Origin: Actinomycetes bacterium
GTDB taxonomy: Bacteria > Actinomycetota > Actinomycetes > Nanopelagicales > Nanopelagicaceae
Assembly: GCA_023252155.1 (NCBI GenBank)
Contig: JAHEXJ010000016.1
Coordinates: forward strand, 1-34,786
Direction of reading: 5' to 3'
Length of the DNA: 34,786 bases
The notes beneath the pieces are model-generated. The model was not told where the DNA came from. It worked only from the letters and a program-made list of their open reading frames with translations, and did no database searches. Below are positions 112-34,786 of the stretch, piece by piece (position 1 is the stretch's first letter; every line of letters starts with the position of its first letter). Made by a program: the position numbers and the translations under genes.

Positions 112-128
112 GTAATACAAGTACAAAG

Positions 129-178
129 TGGGGCGAGTCGGGCTCGAACCGACGACGACGGAATTATGAGTTCCGGGC
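129..178 (-). other. attachment-site core: 3' half of a tRNA with CAT anticodon
   Basis: Read leftward, the sequence gives an anticodon stem CGGAA / TTCCG around the loop CTCATAA (anticodon CAT), a 5-nt variable region, a T arm GTCGG-TTCGAGC-CCGAC, then the acceptor half TCGCCCC and discriminator A. The matching 5' acceptor half (GGGGCGA) and D arm are absent: the bases where they should be (about 180-201) cannot pair. This is a fragment, not a working tRNA gene, and fits the phage-carried 3' half that rebuilds the host tRNA on integration. It sits next to the integrase gene, as expected. Whether this is attP or an integrated junction cannot be told from the window: if integrated, positions 1-128 are host DNA and an intact tRNA lies beyond the right edge. 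Confidence 0.72.
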
Positions 179-248
179 TAAACTAAATCCGTGAGCGCAA
201 CTCCAAAAAACAAGCGTGAAATAGTGTCTTTTTGCGGTATGTGCCACG

Positions 249-254
249 TATACT
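249..254 (+). promoter_or_regulatory. possible -10 element of the integrase promoter
   Basis: TATACT lies about 47 nt before the preferred GTG start at 301, so a transcript would begin near 261 and include the good ribosome binding site at 290-294. The -35 region (about 225-230, TGTCTT) is weak, so this is only a candidate. It would agree with 301 rather than the upstream TTG at 232 being the true start. Confidence 0.3.
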
Positions 255-300
255 ATCGTGGGATAGGCTACAGTTAGACTACGAAGAGCGGAGGAAATCC

Positions 301-1479
301 GTGACAGAGCGGAAGAAAGAATCTAAGCCCCGTCGAATTCGAGGCGAAGGCGCTCTCTACCAACGAGGCGATGGATTATGGGTCGGAACGATCGATCTTG
401 GTTGGCATGGTGGCAAGAGAATCCGCAAATCCGTTACTGCCAAGTCTAAAAAAGCGTGTCAGGCGAAATTTATCGATCTAAAGAAGACCGTCGAAAAGGG
501 CGGCGGGTTAATGAAAAACGTCACCGTCGCTGAATGGCTCAATCACTGGTTGGAGTACATCGTCAGCGAACGCAACGAAGCCAGCACCCTTGAGAGTTAC
601 ACATCATGGACCAAAACTTGGCTGATCCCATATTTGGGGCATCATCGGCTCGATCGATTGTCAGAGGACCACATTCGATCGATGTTGGCCGAGATGAAAA
701 AACAAGGGCGATCGGACGGGACTCGACGACGAACCTACGCAGTTCTTCGCCGGGCATTAGTTGTGGCCATGAGAGAGGGTCGAATCCAACGCAATCCCGC
801 AGCCATGATCGATGCGCCCTCGACCGATGTGACTCACCGACTTCCGCTGACCGTTGCTCAGGCGAAACAGATCCTCGCGCATTTAGACGGCCATCCACTA
901 GCTGCGAGATGGGTCGCTTCGTTGCTCCAAGGAATGAGGCAAGGAGAGTGCCTGGCACTGAAATGGAAGGACATCGATTTCGTCAACGAAGAGATCTCGA
1001 TCAATCAGTCGCAGGTTCGATTGACTGGCCAAGGGATGAGCACCAAAGCCCCGAAATCCAAGTCCAGCACTCGAATAATTCCAATGACTTCGCTAATGCG
1101 GTTTGCCCTTGAAAATACCGAACATCGAGGCGACTTCGTTTTCTACGGAGAACCTAGAGATCGGCGTTCTGACTGGAAAGAGTGGAAGCAGTTGCTCATC
1201 GATGCAGGGGTTTTCCCTGAAGGAACGCCTCTGGGCGAGATGCCAGCCCTTGCATGTGGGCGTCCGACAACTGGCACTCTTCTTCGAGATGCAGGAGTGG
1301 CGGACACGGTAATTCGCGACATCTTGGGCCATTCGCAGGTGCAGGTCACCCAAGAGTCCTATCAGCGAACCGATCAGCCAACGAAGAAGAAGGGGATGAA
1401 GGCACTCGAAGTATTGGTCTCGCCTTCGACCAAAAAAATGACCAAAAAAGCACTTCCCCAAAAGAAGCCTAAGAATTAG
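301..1479 (+). CDS. int: tyrosine-type site-specific integrase
   Basis: Recombines the phage attachment site with the host tRNA site. The start chosen is GTG 301, six bases after GGAGG (290-294). The frame is open further upstream (TTG at 232) but without such a site. The product is about 392 aa. It has an AP2-like arm-binding N-terminus (about residues 10-65, basic, with a YQRGDGLWV stretch), a SAM-like core-binding domain (about 75-165) and the catalytic domain (about 180-365). Counting from GTG 301, the catalytic residues seen are Arg 213 (GMRQGE), Lys about 254 in the SKSSTR hairpin, Arg 321, His 344 (LGHS) and nucleophile Tyr 354 (ESYQR). The box II His that normally precedes Arg by three is Ala here (A-C-G-R). 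The C-terminus is Lys-rich. It lies beside its presumed core and arm sites and is transcribed against the rest of the phage. Confidence 0.93.
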   Translation: MTERKKESKPRRIRGEGALYQRGDGLWVGTIDLGWHGGKRIRKSVTAKSKKACQAKFIDLKKTVEKGGGLMKNVTVAEWLNHWLEYIVSERNEASTLESYTSWTKTWLIPYLGHHRLDRLSEDHIRSMLAEMKKQGRSDGTRRRTYAVLRRALVVAMREGRIQRNPAAMIDAPSTDVTHRLPLTVAQAKQILAHLDGHPLAARWVASLLQGMRQGECLALKWKDIDFVNEEISINQSQVRLTGQGMSTKAPKSKSSTRIIPMTSLMRFALENTEHRGDFVFYGEPRDRRSDWKEWKQLLIDAGVFPEGTPLGEMPALACGRPTTGTLLRDAGVADTVIRDILGHSQVQVTQESYQRTDQPTKKKGMKALEVLVSPSTKKMTKKALPQKKPKN

Positions 1480-16923: not shown

Positions 16924-17589
16924 TTATTGAGAGATTTGGACTGAAAGTACGAGCGAGTTGCCCTTACGTAAGTTGCAAAGCAAGTGAGCAATTTGAAGAT
17001 TGCTTTCATCATTTGATCCACCGTTTGAGAGTGGAACTATGTGGTCGATTGAGCCGTAAGCGGGATCAGGATGCCTCTTTGCGCGGTCGACGGGTTCTCC
17101 GCAAATACCGCACATCCAGTTTGTGCGTTCAGCGATTAAAGCTCGGAAAGTTAAACGATCCGGCCTTGGAGTCATGCAGCGACTTGCGTTCTGTCGGGTC
17201 ACTGCATGGGCGGCAGAATTACATTTTTCAGAACAAAAAGCAGCATCGATACGCATGCTCTTCAACATTTGAGTTCCACAGTGAAGGCAGGAGCGGTCGG
17301 GCTTAGAGGCGATCAGATTGGCTTTCTCGGTTGCGTTTTTTGCACGAAATTTACAAATCCGAGAACAGTACTTATTTCCTGTCCGCGGATCTGCAAACCC
17401 CGGTCGGTATGGCTCTTTACAGTACGAACAATTTTGGAAAGGTAGCGGTACCGAGGTGTCTTCGCCGCGATGGAAAGCGGCGAAGCACCTTCGACACCAA
17501 GTGCCCGATCTCCCACGATAAGACAACGCGTAGTCGTCTAGGGGAACTTTTAATCGACAACGACCGCACATTTGAGAATCTATATTCAT
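16924..17589 (-). CDS. HNH homing-type endonuclease with multiple zinc ribbons
   Basis: 221 aa, inserted between the second capsid gene and the head structural gene. The first 125 residues hold three groups of paired Cys (8/11 with 32/35, 54/57 with 75/79, 101/104 with 119/123), a zinc-ribbon array that probably provides DNA recognition. The HNH core is C-terminal: Cys 160/163, Asp 182-His 183, Asn 197, His 202, with the CN pair that follows. All core residues are present. A ribosome site (GAGG) stands seven bases before ATG. Confidence 0.88.
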   Translation of the reverse strand: MNIDSQMCGRCRLKVPLDDYALSYRGRSGTWCRRCFAAFHRGEDTSVPLPFQNCSYCKEPYRPGFADPRTGNKYCSRICKFRAKNATEKANLIASKPDRSCLHCGTQMLKSMRIDAAFCSEKCNSAAHAVTRQNASRCMTPRPDRLTFRALIAERTNWMCGICGEPVDRAKRHPDPAYGSIDHIVPLSNGGSNDESNLQIAHLLCNLRKGNSLVLSVQISQ

Positions 17590-17621: not shown

Positions 17622-19118
17622 TCAAAATGCGGGGGCAGCAAGTCCGGTATTTCCAGTCAAGATGGAAATTGACGGAGCGAAACGGTTAGGCATGAATGCG
17701 GAGTACGCGTACATCTGGTAGCGAATCTGCAAGGTCCCCGAGAGGATTTCTGGCAGTGCGCGGAAGCGCGGTGTGCCTTCCCAGAGGATCAAGTCGTCCT
17801 CTTTCAAGACCACGATTGGGTCGGCAGTTCCGCCAGTGACTGCGCCGGCGTTCATCGTGGTTGGCATATTGCCGTCCTTGATGACGGGAAGTCCTGAAAG
17901 GACTCCAGCAACGCCTTCGGCGATGTTGGGATTGTCGATACCCAGTGCATTGAATGGGGAGTAAGGCACGAACAGTGGACGACCTGTGGTGTCTACTGCC
18001 GAATACTCCCAAGAGTTTGCGCGGCGAGGATTGACCCAGATGCCGGTAGCGGCGGCAATACGCAGAGTTTCAATCTGGTTCTTGCCGTTGAGGATTGAAC
18101 GGAACTGCGTGTTTGCAGTGGACGCATCATGGAAGACGATCGAGCCGACAGTGACGGCACTTGCCTTAGTAATGTCGGTGTTCGATGTGGCACTCGTGAC
18201 GAGCAAAACGCCTAAGTGTTGGCCATTTGCGCCAGTTCCGTAGAGGATCTGTTGATCCAATTGAAGGTCGTAATCGCGGGAGAGATCATCAAAGATCACG
18301 CCATCGAGTTGGAGAGGTGACTGCTCCAAAAGCTGCAAGGAAATATCTTCCTGGCCTGCAATCGTGCGTACCGAACTCGAAATCGTGCTCGTGGTGATGT
18401 CGCGAGATGTGACACCGGCGGCGTTAGCCGTCTGGATGCCTGTCTGCGAACCCAAGGTGATCTTAGGCAAGTTGATGACATCGATGCCACCAGGTAGGAA
18501 TCGGTTGGTGACGCGATTTGCGCACGTGCGCGTTGCACGTTGGAACGGAACGTACTGAGCGACGAGCCACAATGGCGGAACGAATTCGCCGCCGGTTCCG
18601 GCTGTGGTGTTTGGATTCACACGCTTTTCGTACGAGCCGCCCTCTTCATCGAGAAAGCGGGCAAACTGCTTGCGCTGCTCTGCAGTGGCGTTGCGAGTTT
18701 GAACATCGACCTCTTTGGCGTTGCGTTGCATACGCTCAAGGGCGGTTTCGATGGATGTCGCGGTTGCGCCCATGCGGGCAGCACCGACGGCCAATGTGGC
18801 GAGGTCTTGGAAGTAGGAACCTCCGCGCTTGTTGTCGCGATCGTAAACTCCTGGCTCGGAGATGATCTCGACGGATGGCCTACCGGGGGTCGCAGCGGAT
18901 GCTGCCTTCTCTTCACGTTCGATTTGCTTGCGGAAATTCTCGATCTGGCCGTCGATTTCATCGAGGGAGGTTGAGAACTCTCCGAAACGTTTCTCTTCGT
19001 CTTCATTGAGCACCTTGCGGCCTTCGGCAGTTGGAATCGCCAGCAATGCGTCAAGGTCTTCTTGCATCTTGACGCGACGCTTTTCTGCGGCATCAAGAAG
19101 CGGGGTTACTTGGGACAT
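17622..19118 (-). CDS. major capsid protein 2, HK97 fold, with delta/scaffold domain
   Basis: 498 aa, start preceded by AGGAG. Residues 1-100 are charged and helical (delta domain, about 8-72: EKRRVKMQEDLDALL, NEDEEKRFGEFSTSLDEIDGQI, FRKQIERE). The HK97-fold body begins near SYFQDL (101-106). Key points: GGEFVPPLWLV, GTGANGQ (294-300), GLPVIKDGNMP, then LILWEGTPRFRALPE and a C-terminal strand. The delta part would direct assembly and be removed by the protease encoded just upstream. It lies in the standard place after the prohead protease. It is clearly related along its body to the capsid protein at 20164-21294. Confidence 0.92.
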   Translation of the reverse strand: MSQVTPLLDAAEKRRVKMQEDLDALLAIPTAEGRKVLNEDEEKRFGEFSTSLDEIDGQIENFRKQIEREEKAASAATPGRPSVEIISEPGVYDRDNKRGGSYFQDLATLAVGAARMGATATSIETALERMQRNAKEVDVQTRNATAEQRKQFARFLDEEGGSYEKRVNPNTTAGTGGEFVPPLWLVAQYVPFQRATRTCANRVTNRFLPGGIDVINLPKITLGSQTGIQTANAAGVTSRDITTSTISSSVRTIAGQEDISLQLLEQSPLQLDGVIFDDLSRDYDLQLDQQILYGTGANGQHLGVLLVTSATSNTDITKASAVTVGSIVFHDASTANTQFRSILNGKNQIETLRIAAATGIWVNPRRANSWEYSAVDTTGRPLFVPYSPFNALGIDNPNIAEGVAGVLSGLPVIKDGNMPTTMNAGAVTGGTADPIVVLKEDDLILWEGTPRFRALPEILSGTLQIRYQMYAYSAFMPNRFAPSISILTGNTGLAAPAF

Positions 19119-19215
19119 GGTTGTCTCCTCTTAGGGTGAGTGGGTGGAGTACTAGCCCAGGTGCAATGCTGAAAAGAAGCAGGTGAATCCTCAGAGAAGG
19201 GATTCGGCGTGCGAC

Positions 19216-20154
19216 TTACGCGATGCGGCGTGGTTTGGTGCGAAGGACGTATGCCCTCGCTTTCGCAAAATCGAGGGAAAGGGCTGAATTAGCCTGATCG
19301 GTCTCGTCTGCGACATCTGGGTTGGCAACGCCAAGGAGTTCGGCGAGGACTTGCTGGGCGGTGTCCATCGCGGAATCCGAGGTGGAACACAGGCTTAGAA
19401 CGTGCTTGAGCGTTGCTTCGGTGGCGGCAGAGAAGGTCGCACCGGCACGAAGTTCGGATAGTGCTGCGGAGAAATTTTCGACTGTTGGCAAGAGAACGAG
19501 TTGTCTCACCGCGCCCATCACACTGGCGTCGGCGCGAAGTTCGATAAGTTCTTCTTCGCCTAATTCAGGCAAATTCGTGAATATCGAGCGCATGACGACG
19601 GAGGTTTTGGCATTCGCCCCATAATTGACTACTGAGACATCTCCTCGATTGAGGTCGATCTCAAGAATTTCGCGCTGGTCATACTCGTCCGTCCAGAGTT
19701 GACGTGTGACGCGGAAAGCGAAGGAGCATTGATCCATAAGACCCTGCTCGACTTTGCGGGCTGCGCGTTGCGCCTCGGGGTCTTGGTCATCAGCCGCGGC
19801 ATCGTATTCAAGACCTTCGTCAGTCTCCCGCAAATCGAGTGTGCCATTGGTTGTTCGGGCTAGCGGCAAGCCCTCATGGTTGAGGAGGAACTGGACGTCG
19901 GGATTCTCGCTTAGGGTCTTGGTGAAAGCGCCTTGCATAACACGCTCGGTGTACCAGCCCATGTCATAGCCGTTATCACGGATCAGGGTCGAGGTATCGT
20001 CGCCAAGTTTGCCGTTGCGAATAGAGGTCGAGGAAGCAAGACCGTGGAAATGGAATTTCCCACCTGCGGCTCTAACTTCGACGTGGTTGGAAACAAGGAG
20101 TCCTCTACGGACTTCACGACCTTTGAGTAGTTGAACGCGGGCTGCGCGATCCAT
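19216..20154 (-). CDS. HK97-type prohead protease with long C-terminal extension
   Basis: 312 aa; start preceded by AGGAGG. The protease domain (about residues 30-200) has the serine-protease core of the U35 family: HFHGLASS near the start, LLNHEGLPLART (His 93), and the QCSFAFRV segment with Ser 144 as nucleophile, then RGDVSVVNYGAN. It trims the delta domain of capsid proteins after assembly. A further C-terminal stretch (about 200-312), rich in helix (ELIELRADASVMGAVRQLVL, ATLKHVLSLC), is larger than the minimal family and might be a scaffold-like extension. It stands between the two capsid genes. Confidence 0.87.
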   Translation of the reverse strand: MDRAARVQLLKGREVRRGLLVSNHVEVRAAGGKFHFHGLASSTSIRNGKLGDDTSTLIRDNGYDMGWYTERVMQGAFTKTLSENPDVQFLLNHEGLPLARTTNGTLDLRETDEGLEYDAAADDQDPEAQRAARKVEQGLMDQCSFAFRVTRQLWTDEYDQREILEIDLNRGDVSVVNYGANAKTSVVMRSIFTNLPELGEEELIELRADASVMGAVRQLVLLPTVENFSAALSELRAGATFSAATEATLKHVLSLCSTSDSAMDTAQQVLAELLGVANPDVADETDQANSALSLDFAKARAYVLRTKPRRIA

Positions 20155-20163
20155 GTCAGCCTC

Positions 20164-21294
20164 CTAGAAGTTCGACGGCGCGGGCAAAGCAGAGAGCTTC
20201 GCGATGGCCGATGGGTAGCGGGAGCCGATGAAGGCCACGTAGCGATGCATGGATAGACGCATCTGCAACGTGCCTGCCAGTGGGTTTTGTGCGGTGATGT
20301 AGCGAGGAGCCGATTCCCAGAGGAACATGTCCGAGGGGCGAATGGCAAAGACATCATCTGCGGAAGTACCTGCGGGAATCGCACCATCGAGATAAACGGG
20401 CAAGCCCTGGACAGGACCGAAGGTGGGTAAGCAGCAGCAGGCCATTTCAAGATCGCAGCTGTGTGCCCCATTGTTGCCAGGGGAGGCGATTGGACGATTG
20501 GAGGAATCCACGCTCGAGGCGATCCAGAACCAACGACGAATGGCCATCAGAAATACTTCGGGAGGGAGCAGGCGGTTGTTTCCGACGGAAGCGCCGATTT
20601 CGCCAAGGAGTGGCCAGAGTGCGGCGATGGTGGTTGTCCCTGCACCGGAGATCGAGCCGATGCCCGTTACTGCATTGATCCCTGTGAGTTGGCCGTTGGC
20701 CCCAGTTCCGTAGAGAAGTTGGGATTCGAGATTCTTGTTGTAGGCCAAGGAAAGGTCCATATACCACGCGGCGTCCAGGCCGATCGGGGAAAGGTCGAGG
20801 AGTTGCTGGCTCACGTCGCCGTGTCCAGCGATGGTGACGACATTGGAGGAAGCATCAGTCGTCACGACATCCTGACTTGCGACCGCGCCGCCGTCTGTCT
20901 GCGTACTAGTCGTGTTGCCCGTGGTCATGCGAGGCGTGTGAATTGAAGTGACTCCCGCAGGAAGAACCATTGGATCAAGGAGATCGCCAAAGGGACGTCC
21001 TGCACGAGCTGATGTTGCAAATTTATCGATCAACCAGAGAGGGACGTCAAACTCTCCACCGAACCCAACGCCTGACGTCGGATTAGTGCGATATTCGATC
21101 GGAGCACCCTCGGCTGTCTGCTCAAGACGCTTTTCGTCTTTCGGTGCTTCCACGAGCATCTGACGTTGGTGAAGTTCGAGTCGGGCCGTGGCCTCGGGGT
21201 CGTGGAGGAGTTGTGCGCGCACGAGGTCTTGGAAGAACGAGCGCCTAGCCTCTTCGGCATAGACCAAAGGTTCTTTCACTTGGAGATTTGTCAT
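20164..21294 (-). CDS. major capsid protein 1, HK97 fold, lacking the delta domain
   Basis: 376 aa. It follows the portal and precedes the protease, where a protease gene is normally first. The body aligns by eye with the second capsid protein from RSFFQDL (residues 18-24) on: VPLWLI, SQLLYGTGANGQ (192-202), GLPVYLDGAIP, DMFLWESAPRY, GTLQMRLSMHRY and the final strand. The N-terminus is short, and there is no helical region equivalent to residues 1-90 of the second protein. It may be a vertex or minor capsid protein, or a second shell protein. No frameshift or stop breaks it. Confidence 0.87.
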   Translation of the reverse strand: MTNLQVKEPLVYAEEARRSFFQDLVRAQLLHDPEATARLELHQRQMLVEAPKDEKRLEQTAEGAPIEYRTNPTSGVGFGGEFDVPLWLIDKFATSARAGRPFGDLLDPMVLPAGVTSIHTPRMTTGNTTSTQTDGGAVASQDVVTTDASSNVVTIAGHGDVSQQLLDLSPIGLDAAWYMDLSLAYNKNLESQLLYGTGANGQLTGINAVTGIGSISGAGTTTIAALWPLLGEIGASVGNNRLLPPEVFLMAIRRWFWIASSVDSSNRPIASPGNNGAHSCDLEMACCCLPTFGPVQGLPVYLDGAIPAGTSADDVFAIRPSDMFLWESAPRYITAQNPLAGTLQMRLSMHRYVAFIGSRYPSAIAKLSALPAPSNF

Positions 21295-22588: not shown

Positions 22589-22791
22589 GGATTAGCAGGC
22601 TTCCGCTTGGGGATGAGCCGCTTGAGCAATGCCACGAAGGATCGGAGAACTACAAGAGATTTGTCGTCCTCGATCAGGAAGCCAATGAAGAGCAGAACTA
22701 GGCCGGTCACGATCAGGCCAGCGATCAAGCCGAACTGCCAGCCAGCGACTACAAGAAAGGCAAATCCGAGAAGTTCGATGAGCGTGCTCAC
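22585..22791 (-). CDS. small two-helix membrane protein before portal
   Basis: 68 aa from GTG 22791, overlapping the previous stop as GTGA (a start at 22800 would be inside the previous gene). Two hydrophobic helices (about residues 4-20 and 22-40, IELLGFAFLVVAGWQFG and AGLIVTGLVLLFIGFL) are followed by a basic C-terminus (LLKRLIPKRKPA). The gene overlaps the portal start by ATGA. A membrane protein inside the packaging module is unusual; function unknown. Confidence 0.68.
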   Translation of the reverse strand: MSTLIELLGFAFLVVAGWQFGLIAGLIVTGLVLLFIGFLIEDDKSLVVLRSFVALLKRLIPKRKPANP

Positions 22792-23159
22792 ATGAACCAC
22801 GCAGTCGCCGTGCCTACGACAGTGGAGAGGATGACGAAAGAGGCGGGGGCTGTGTCAAAACTGATTAAGGTCGGCCATTTGTTCGAAATTGCCACGCCCG
22901 TATCACCAGAAATGCCTTTGAGAGTGAGCGTTCCAGCAAAAGCAGGGTTCGGAATGGGGTTTGCTGCATTCGGAGGAAAGATCACGACTGCAGTTGCACC
23001 ACTAGGTACCGTGACTGTGGTCGCGCCGTTAATGAGAGCGACGGCTAGGGTCTGAGTGACCGCAGCATTGGCCGTGATAGTGACGGGGCCGAAGGTTCGA
23101 GACCCGTCAAGCCCGCCAGTGACGTTTGCTGCCAGTGTAATGTTTCCAGTTGCGGCCAT
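22788..23159 (-). CDS. beta-rich protein between terminase and portal
   Basis: 123 aa. Almost wholly short beta strands rich in Thr, Val, Ala and Pro (GNITLAANVTGGLDGSRTFGPV, TVTVPSGATAVVIFPPNAAN, TLTLKGISGDTGVAI). The pattern looks like a small jelly-roll or structural domain as used in fibre or capsid decorations. It abuts the terminase stop and overlaps the membrane gene start. No known packaging function fits. Structural role is an inference. Confidence 0.65.
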   Translation of the reverse strand: MAATGNITLAANVTGGLDGSRTFGPVTITANAAVTQTLAVALINGATTVTVPSGATAVVIFPPNAANPIPNPAFAGTLTLKGISGDTGVAISNKWPTLISFDTAPASFVILSTVVGTATAWFM

Positions 23160-34029: not shown

Positions 34030-34786
34030 TTACCGCTCGCCTTCAACTCTTCCAGTTTCGCCTCAAGTTTCTCGATCTCGATTTGAGTTTCGGATTTCTG
34101 AACCACAATCGGCTCTCCGTCAATATCGACTTCGTAGAGAACTTCACAACTCGCGACTTTGCATTTATCTTCGAGTGGAATCAGATCGTCAGCGAGAACT
34201 TTTACCACGACGAAACGCGTTGCTTCTTGATAGAAGTTTTTGGCATGACGTGGGGTTATTCCAAAGTGAAGACCCTTGCCGCACTCTTTGGTCGGCTTGA
34301 AATCTTTGGCAACGACCGTGCTGCCAGGTGAGTAGGTCCATTCTTTCCCGCGAGTCGTCTGCCACTCGTCATTGACTGCCTTATAGACAAGTGCGCGGCC
34401 CTCTTCGTCAACTTTGACACCATGATAATCGAGCCAATCTGGCGCGCTTGTAAGATCGAGTTTTGTAAGGTCGATAAGAACTCCACCGGCAACAACTGCT
34501 CGCGATGAATGTAAATGAATCGCGACAAATTTTGACGCTACGACTGTCGAACTTCCCCACGCTTCGACTCTCGAACTTCCCCACGCTACGACTGTCGAAC
34601 TTTCCCACGCTTCGACTGTCGAACTTTCCCGCGCTACGACTGTCGAACTTCCCCACGCTTCGACTCTCGAACTTCCCCACGCTTCGACTGTCGAACTTTC
34701 CCGCGCTACGACTGTCGAACTTCCCCACGCTACGACTGTCGAACTTTCCCGCGCTACGACTCTCGAACTTCCCCACGCTACGACTG
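34026..34786 (-). CDS. octapeptide-repeat protein, 5' end outside the window
   Basis: Open from the right edge to TGA 34026. In the frame that runs on into the C-terminal domain, the array at about 34539-34784 reads as ten full copies of A-[WR]-[GE]-S-S-[TR]-V-[VE] (for example AWGSSTVV, ARESSTVE), then SKFVAIHLHSSRAVVAGG, a globular region with ECGKGLHFGITPRHAKNFY and KVASCEVLYEVDIDGEP, and a short coiled coil (IEIEKLEAKLEELKASGK). The C-terminal region resembles a conserved phage domain I recall as DUF7666-like; that name is not certain. In the competing frame the array reads GKF[DE]SRS[AV], but that frame ends after 123 residues with a poor tail. The gene ends directly before the exonuclease start (ATGA). 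Function unknown; the repeat looks like a beta-solenoid or binding array. Confidence 0.7.
   Translation of the reverse strand, partial: VVAWGSSRVVARESSTVVAWGSSTVVARESSTVEAWGSSRVEAWGSSTVVARESSTVEAWESSTVVAWGSSRVEAWGSSTVVASKFVAIHLHSSRAVVAGGVLIDLTKLDLTSAPDWLDYHGVKVDEEGRALVYKAVNDEWQTTRGKEWTYSPGSTVVAKDFKPTKECGKGLHFGITPRHAKNFYQEATRFVVVKVLADDLIPLEDKCKVASCEVLYEVDIDGEPIVVQKSETQIEIEKLEAKLEELKASGK
34537..34786. repeat. 24-bp tandem repeat array at the right edge
   Basis: About ten copies of a 24-nt unit (top strand CGCTACGACTGTCGAACTTCCCCA and close variants) run to the edge of the window. Variation is confined to four positions per unit: A/T, C/G, C/T and A/G, each with two states, so copies are mosaics of the same two alleles. 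The array is coding in one leftward frame that joins the protein ending at 34026. It may continue beyond the window; repeats of this kind also often terminate assemblies. Confidence 0.9.

Follow-up and report, generated by a model that had tools for sequence, protein, structure and literature searches.

Unequal paralogous HK97-fold capsid proteins in a temperate actinobacterial phage genome: a candidate hexon and penton pair

Phage HK97, whose protease is of the S78 type, makes both pentamers and hexamers from one protein. The phage considered here has two paralogous HK97-fold capsid genes, hereafter A and B. The two genes lie on contig JAHEXJ010000016.1, one of the 114 contigs of a 1.8 Mb genome bin; the entire contig (34,786 bases) was analysed and is called the window below. 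The scaffold of HK97 is the N-terminal delta domain of the capsid protein gp5; 30 or more of these domains contact the portal, whereas those near ordinary penton vertices show no substantial interaction with the penton subunits (PMC10275583). Two systems with a pair of shell proteins are closest to the present one. For T4, PMC9958956 reports that gp24, which forms pentamers, loses 10 residues, and gp23, which forms hexamers, loses 65. For the satellite SaPIbov5, PMC8569155 and PMC5052747 describe Ccm as a capsid homologue with a delta domain about 40 residues shorter, located in pentamers, the hexamers being formed by CP of phi12, and place K or R before the cut sites; by itself, Ccm forms no shell (PMC8569155). 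Among the nearest cultured relatives are the Cluster J mycobacteriophages (Baka, LittleE and Omega, genus Omegavirus), which likewise have a delta domain, cut in LittleE after E-Y-R, but show one capsid place per record, against the pair described here.

In the window the order is portal, capsid A, S78 protease and capsid B, all on the minus strand (Table 1); gene order, coordinates and protein lengths had been given correctly in a preliminary description, made from the sequence alone. The same description regarded A and B as paralogous over the whole body, and this was borne out by blastp, which aligns them across almost all of the length they have in common (31% identity in 417 aligned columns, 172 bits, E 2e-53), far beyond chance. 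Both proteins exceed the Pfam cut-off of 24.2 bits for Phage_capsid, with scores of 43.8 (A) and 52.9 (B). The AlphaFold models are of moderate confidence, with mean pLDDT of 75.9 for A and 76.8 for B, and each of them matches HK97-fold capsids in the PDB with E 1e-13 or better; the alignment and the structure models proposed earlier as checks gave significant homology and a common predicted fold. The best match is HK97 gp5 for A, and the phiXacJX1 capsid, followed by HK97, for B, the TM-scores of the top matches, by query length, ranging from 0.4 to 0.56. No T4 capsid is found among the 50 PDB matches listed for the A model, and a phmmer search of PDB sequences with B returned nothing at E 1.

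Relatives were collected by scans of IMG/VR, and the window was added to them; duplicates were removed and near-identical A loci were grouped at 95% A identity. Since the loci were found by capsid queries, several of them built from A, their counts say nothing about prevalence. An A-type capsid was found at 45 loci, window included, corresponding to 35 groups. In 24 of these groups the block from portal through B lies on one contig: 18 have the order portal-protease-A-B (order 2) and 6, made up of the window, L004, L015, L016, L017/L018 and L019, share the order portal-A-protease-B (order 1), for which a search elsewhere had been suggested. In this set of 24, a contig end cuts the portal gene of L015 and the B gene of L133, and B is in pieces in L130 and L138. 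Eight further groups are cut off, yet compatible with one order or the other, and in three (L131/L132, L129/L135 and L124) A is followed by the protease and B is not seen, the contig of L124 ending inside the protease gene. Two loci with two capsid frames each, L078 and L086, were not counted as dual, because in each of them a single interrupted gene seems to have been split into two frames. Capsid frames in pieces were observed in L130, L138, L078, L086 and L171, possibly reflecting introns, as in LittleE, where the capsid gene is split by one.

The pair is neither recent nor degenerate. Comparison of the window with L003 and L004 gave dN values of 0.17-0.26 for A and B, with dS values, partly saturated, of 1.3-3.0, indicating purifying selection on both genes. 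Within a contig, A and B are only 33-41% identical over 356 core columns (25 representatives), as befits an old and specialised duplication. Over the same columns conservation is lower in A than in B for 221 of 300 pairs. Eight positions are conserved in A and not in B, and five of them lie close together at residues 235-249, after the spine helix; by analogy, they probably belong to the A-domain, which packs at the centre of the capsomer, an indication that is suggestive only. For the tree, rows shorter than 280 aa, scoring less than 140 bits or at least 85% identical to a row already kept were dropped, reducing 196 rows to 132, of which 33 are A, 27 are B and 72 are from loci with a single capsid gene (singles). 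A single branch, with SH-aLRT 98, separates all A rows from the rest, and in an earlier tree of 81 rows the 16 A rows were together with SH-aLRT 100. The B rows are interspersed with the singles, in two groups which are separate in the free tree; a tree holding 29 B-type rows together was not rejected (p-AU 0.148). Given the single A clade and this result, separate origins of the pair in the two gene orders were set aside, and a single duplication is possible, though unproven. Duplicates of capsid genes can be transient, as is generally known, and the pair might be a decaying or recent duplication, or an assembly artefact; with the same pair present on many separate contigs, a deep A clade and dN far below dS, the chance of this is practically negligible.

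The two proteins differ mainly at the N-terminus. As observed in the preliminary description, B has extra N-terminal residues, 97 more than A in front of a conserved cleavage motif (166 vs 69), and its model contains confident helices at residues 5-32 and 39-76, with no counterpart in the A model. A delta profile was built from 74 anchored B and single rows, so that most of the B and single rows tested with it are training rows. At E 0.01 it matched 26 of 27 B rows and 62 of 72 singles, and none of the 33 A rows (best E 0.14); the sole B miss is a fragment, and the single misses include fragments and divergent rows. The position of the cleavage site was derived from LittleE, whose mature capsid starts at DLDRNNGTGG according to the N-terminal sequencing result given in PMC3706429. 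In the LittleE gene this start is immediately preceded by E-E-Y-R, and the site was placed by eye on the shared GTGG, in an alignment which itself contained Baka. At the equivalent P1 column an Arg is found in 32/33 A rows, 26/27 B rows and all 72 singles, the A and B exceptions being gaps, and two residues before it, at P3, a Glu occurs in 30/33, 26/27 and 65/72 rows, respectively. Conservation of this E-x-R column in A, B and singles leads to predicted cuts after R69 in A and after R166 in B, the experimental site being that of single-capsid relatives; both predicted sites fall in low-confidence stretches of the models (64-82 in A, 159-191 in B). The median length before the cut, for frames as called, is 91 residues in A, 201 in B and 171 in singles.

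With its helices, profile match and predicted cut motif, B has the features of a delta-domain capsid of the HK97 type and is most likely the regular major capsid protein of the phage, its complete delta domain serving as built-in scaffold. An N-terminal coiled-coil scaffold of this kind is lacking in A, as judged from the profile results. A total loss of the delta domain in A was considered and ruled out once the LittleE cut site had been aligned: A appears, from the alignment, to be a protein which lost the coiled-coil tower and retains the distal pro-segment and the cut motif. The initial claim that only B has a delta domain therefore needs qualification, holding for the proximal helical hairpin and the profile match, both absent from A, and not for the distal part of the pro-segment.

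Taken together, the presence of the pair in 24 of 35 groups, the A clade, the purifying selection and the split in delta-profile matches support two paralogous shell proteins with different roles, as had been supposed. The reading preferred here, with a probability of about 0.6, is that A and B co-assemble as HK97-fold shell proteins, B forming the hexamers and A being an ancient paralogue which forms the pentamers at the vertices. Under this reading A would most likely occupy the 11 non-portal vertices, at 55 copies per shell. Assembly can be pictured, by comparison with HK97, T4 and Ccm, as a series of steps. Hexamers of B would nucleate on the portal via their coiled coils, by analogy with HK97; pentamers of A would then join without coiled coils of their own, presumably because the vertex needs no such scaffold contact; the S78 protease would cut A after R69 and B after R166, at the E-x-R motif shared in the alignment; and the shell would finally expand. 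The assignment to hexon and vertex, offered as an example in the preliminary description, is accordingly retained as the preferred one, on the precedent of T4 gp24 and SaPIbov5 Ccm rather than on particles.

The likeness to T4 lies in the presence of two paralogous HK97-fold proteins in one virus, the shorter pro-peptide being that of gp24, as it is that of A here. The phage in the window differs in being a temperate one of the HK97 type, with the delta domain of the capsid protein as scaffold, and the penton role of A is deduced by comparison. Similarly, A shares with Ccm the condition of an HK97-fold homologue with a shortened delta domain, 69 residues preceding the cut motif against 166 in B. 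Ccm, however, is encoded by a satellite and resizes the head of its helper, whereas A lies inside the phage's own block of head genes in the 24 groups, and the window is not a satellite devoid of a full head set, since portal, terminase, protease, B and tail genes are all present. The same comparisons bear on the possibility that A and B mix within hexamers, or that A fills only certain hexamers, for instance the ones next to the portal or the vertices. Mixing would be permitted by the same fold, the common core and the shared cut motif; in both two-protein HK97-fold shells compared, T4 and Ccm/phi12, however, pentamers are formed by whichever paralogue has the shorter pro-segment, Ccm/CP capsomers are homotypic, and the identity of A and B within a contig is low, all of which makes this arrangement quite unlikely.

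The spacing of the genes was also considered, with each gap measured from the final sense codon. Among the 17 order-2 representatives, 14 have an A gene that begins before the protease gene has ended; in order 1 the protease follows A by 12 nt or less in 6 of 8, the called frames of the other two overlapping by 184 and 8 nt. B is the last gene of the block in all 25 cases, after a spacer of at least 27 nt. The tight adjacency of A and protease in both gene orders, along with the two A groups without visible B which keep A and protease together, is what might be expected if A acted outside the shell, using the capsid fold as an assembly decoy, a protease partner or an anti-satellite protein. 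Against such a role, A retains the capsid core and the maturation motif (Arg in 32/33), as expected of a procapsid component, and co-varies with B more than with the protease, the Mantel r for A-B distances being 0.88, versus 0.53 for A-protease and 0.48 for B-protease (25 representatives). A function outside the shell is therefore considered very unlikely.

A different role could be played by A in determining the size or shape of the head, if mixing of A with B altered the geometry and yielded a second capsid size, for the phage or for an element helped by it; in this case too A may sit in pentamers, and it is by occupying pentamers that Ccm resizes the phi12 shell. Capsid genes resembling A are in fact found on elements, those of L131/L132 and of G396, which look like satellites and recall Ccm, all of them incomplete. 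In L131 (1318-4131) and L132 (362-7630) a D5-type primase, an HNH gene, a small gene and a terminase large subunit (phrog_9 7.9e-61) are followed by an HTH-like gene, recognised by eye, an A-type capsid, a 147-aa coiled-coil-like gene and an S78 protease. In these two loci neither a portal nor a second capsid gene nor a match to the delta profile was found, and the genes after the protease, where tested, gave no Pfam match above cut-off and no PHROG match. In L135 (3878-6544) and L129 (808-3509) an A-type capsid, a charged gene of 160 aa, coiled-coil-like by eye, and a protease are present, B not being seen; the 160-aa product is a candidate for a separate scaffold. L201 (1845-6895), from genome G396, has a lone capsid homologue, in a 403-aa frame, near a D5-type primase; in the tree it occupies a long branch as the sister of the A clade, it has no delta-profile match, and neither portal nor protease matches were detected within 12 kb of it. 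The elements in L131/L132 and G396 speak for a size switch. On the other side, A is fixed within the phage's own head block in 24 groups, which suggests a constitutive part of the shell, the contigs behind the satellite reading are incomplete, and for the G396 capsid the profile of B and singles gives a better score than that of A (352 vs 296 bits), though the tree puts it beside A. A size switch is thus regarded as unlikely.

Several observations weigh against the assignment of B to hexons and A to pentons. A-type genes without visible B, as in L131/L132 and L129/L135 (L124 being cut off), suggest that A may sometimes do more than form pentons. Single-capsid relatives, including Baka, whose triangulation number is T=13 (PMC3706429), appear to build both capsomers from one protein, so that a special penton protein is not needed. 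Four A groups carry an N-terminal extension of 113-134 residues with no delta match. The three Mantel correlations are all inflated by the co-inheritance of neighbouring genes. Finally, of 24 pairs overall, only 13 have a stronger Shine-Dalgarno sequence at B than at A, the starts of order-2 B genes being uncertain, and ribosome-binding strength was dropped as a proxy of copy number, since it gave no general signal of stoichiometry. In order 1 taken separately B exceeds A in 7 of 7 pairs, a difference which, for the group of the window, agrees with few copies of A and many of B, without being a general proof. The extended A-type capsids are those of L114 (7677-9125), L118, L126 and L130, in which the extra region before the conserved segment appears beta-rich by eye.

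Cultured phages were searched by tblastn, comparing four queries (A and B of the window, A of L021 and B of L073) with 50,697 phage records. Each query matched 57 records, all of them mycobacteriophages, at one place per record, identity over the 57 matching records being 28-36%; no second capsid place was found in the 57 records, although a very divergent copy would escape such a search. The gene tables of Porcelain, prophiGD43A-5 and Baka show portal, protease and a single capsid gene, in this order. In cellular genomes, sampled among relatives (n=199), class (n=394) and phylum (n=396), with the window's own genome counted in each sample, matches were found in 2/199 (E 1e-3), 16/394 (E 1e-3) and 3/396 (E 1e-10), respectively. 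Beyond the own genome, three have two matches, located in pieces of one frame (G396), on two contigs (G385) and in two short frames (G675); full capsid frames side by side were seen in none of the three samples apart from the own genome. Contigs of named genomes had no relative in a first scan (0 of 52 stretches) and had one in 4 of 72 stretches in a second scan, with one capsid frame in each; four plasmid records matched, with one capsid place each. The precedent in actinobacterial prophages which the preliminary description tentatively mentioned was not recovered, the matching named phage, plasmid and genome records having one capsid gene each at the sensitivity used. In the literature no paper was found on such a pair in HK97-type phages, which is weak evidence, being limited to openly licensed papers. 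A paper on Arthrobacter phage RazzB (PMC13014141) names a 'major capsid hexamer protein', and a division between hexamer and pentamer proteins may therefore already be suspected in another actinophage cluster, which cuts against novelty; no Arthrobacter phage matched A or B in the tblastn search of phage records.

The features of the window are reported in Table 1. The window is a temperate phage genome, with integrase, attachment core, terminase, portal, head and tail genes; all of these but the integrase gene and the attachment core were recognised by Pfam and PHROG profiles as genes of the minus strand. The G+C content is 53%, vs 52% in two sampled contigs of the bin. About 125 residues of the protease lie beyond the S78 match (residues 65-187), in agreement with the extension past the catalytic domain noted at first; the length of the protease varies among relatives, and in order 2 (L114 6178-7677 and others) a long N-terminal stretch precedes the S78 domain, in proteins of up to about 500 aa, some starts being uncertain. 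Small genes located between terminase and portal in L004 and L005 resemble by eye the 123-aa gene of the window. Between portal and A, a gene of 143-155 aa is found in L003 (195-626), L004 (2028-2459) and L005 (3422-3889), carrying the motif DGHHRLSAL, which we take to be ParB-like, with a sub-threshold Pfam match; portal-A gaps of similar size occur in L016, L018 and L019, and no gap in the window and L015. A free-standing HNH endonuclease gene directly follows capsid B in the window (16924-17589, with a Pfam match) and in L004 (6167-6826). Short iterated repeats were noted by eye at both contig ends (1-110 and about 34560-34786): those beside the integrase are TGTCAAG-type units, and those at the right end contain TTCGACTGTCGAACTT.

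Table 1. Features of the window, with coordinates, strand and supporting evidence; aa, amino acids; SD, Shine-Dalgarno.
Feature	Position	Strand	Evidence
Attachment core, 54 bp	126..179	-	Identical to the 3' part of a tRNA-Met gene at another place in the bin
Tyrosine integrase	232..1479	+	phrog_1 7.9e-57; Pfam Phage_integrase
Capsid B (498 aa), major capsid protein of HK97 fold with complete delta domain; candidate hexon subunit	17622..19118	-	Pfam Phage_capsid 4.7e-14
Predicted pro-domain (delta) of B, residues 1-166, ending E164-K165-R166	18621..19118	-	Alignment column equivalent to LittleE cleavage site
Proximal helical hairpin of B, residues 1-76, absent from A	18891..19118	-	AlphaFold, block pLDDT 84-94 for residues 1-70; delta profile
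Spacer of 97 nt upstream of B, with strong SD	19119..19215	-	SD duplex -9.1 (B) vs -5.3 kcal/mol (A)
Prohead protease, 312 aa, S78 family	19216..20154	-	Pfam Peptidase_S78 1.6e-23
Capsid A (376 aa), paralogue of HK97 fold whose pro-segment is shortened; candidate penton (vertex) subunit	20164..21294	-	Pfam Phage_capsid 2.7e-11
Predicted pro-segment of A, residues 1-69, ending E67-Y68-R69	21088..21294	-	Alignment column equivalent to LittleE cleavage site
Portal protein, 423 aa	21317..22588	-	Pfam Phage_portal 1.7e-77; phrog_12
Protein of 123 aa between terminase and portal	22788..23159	-	No match in Pfam or PHROG
Terminase large subunit, 483 aa	23159..24610	-	phrog_9 5.1e-76

Shells made of two HK97-fold proteins are already known; what is new is an HK97-type lineage which divides the built-in scaffold unequally between two shell proteins, in two gene orders and on many environmental contigs, as a pair not seen in cultured phage records at the sensitivity used. 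More broadly, it may tentatively be proposed that a temperate lineage of the HK97 type, represented here by IMG/VR contigs and one genome bin, split its shell, independently of T4, into a full-scaffold hexon and a tower-less penton protein and that, tower-less genes occurring also on satellite-like elements, dedicated penton proteins may be the reservoir that supplies satellites with capsid-resizing proteins, or the other way round. How one HK97-fold protein chooses between pentamer and hexamer, and which part the delta domain has in each, is a long-standing question in assembly. A and B appear to separate the two jobs, having a common core and cut motif, with the coiled-coil tower in B alone. 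If A is a penton protein, the tower would be needed for hexons and the portal vertex and not for pentons, the roles would become separately mutable, and A would be a phage-borne counterpart of the satellite protein Ccm.

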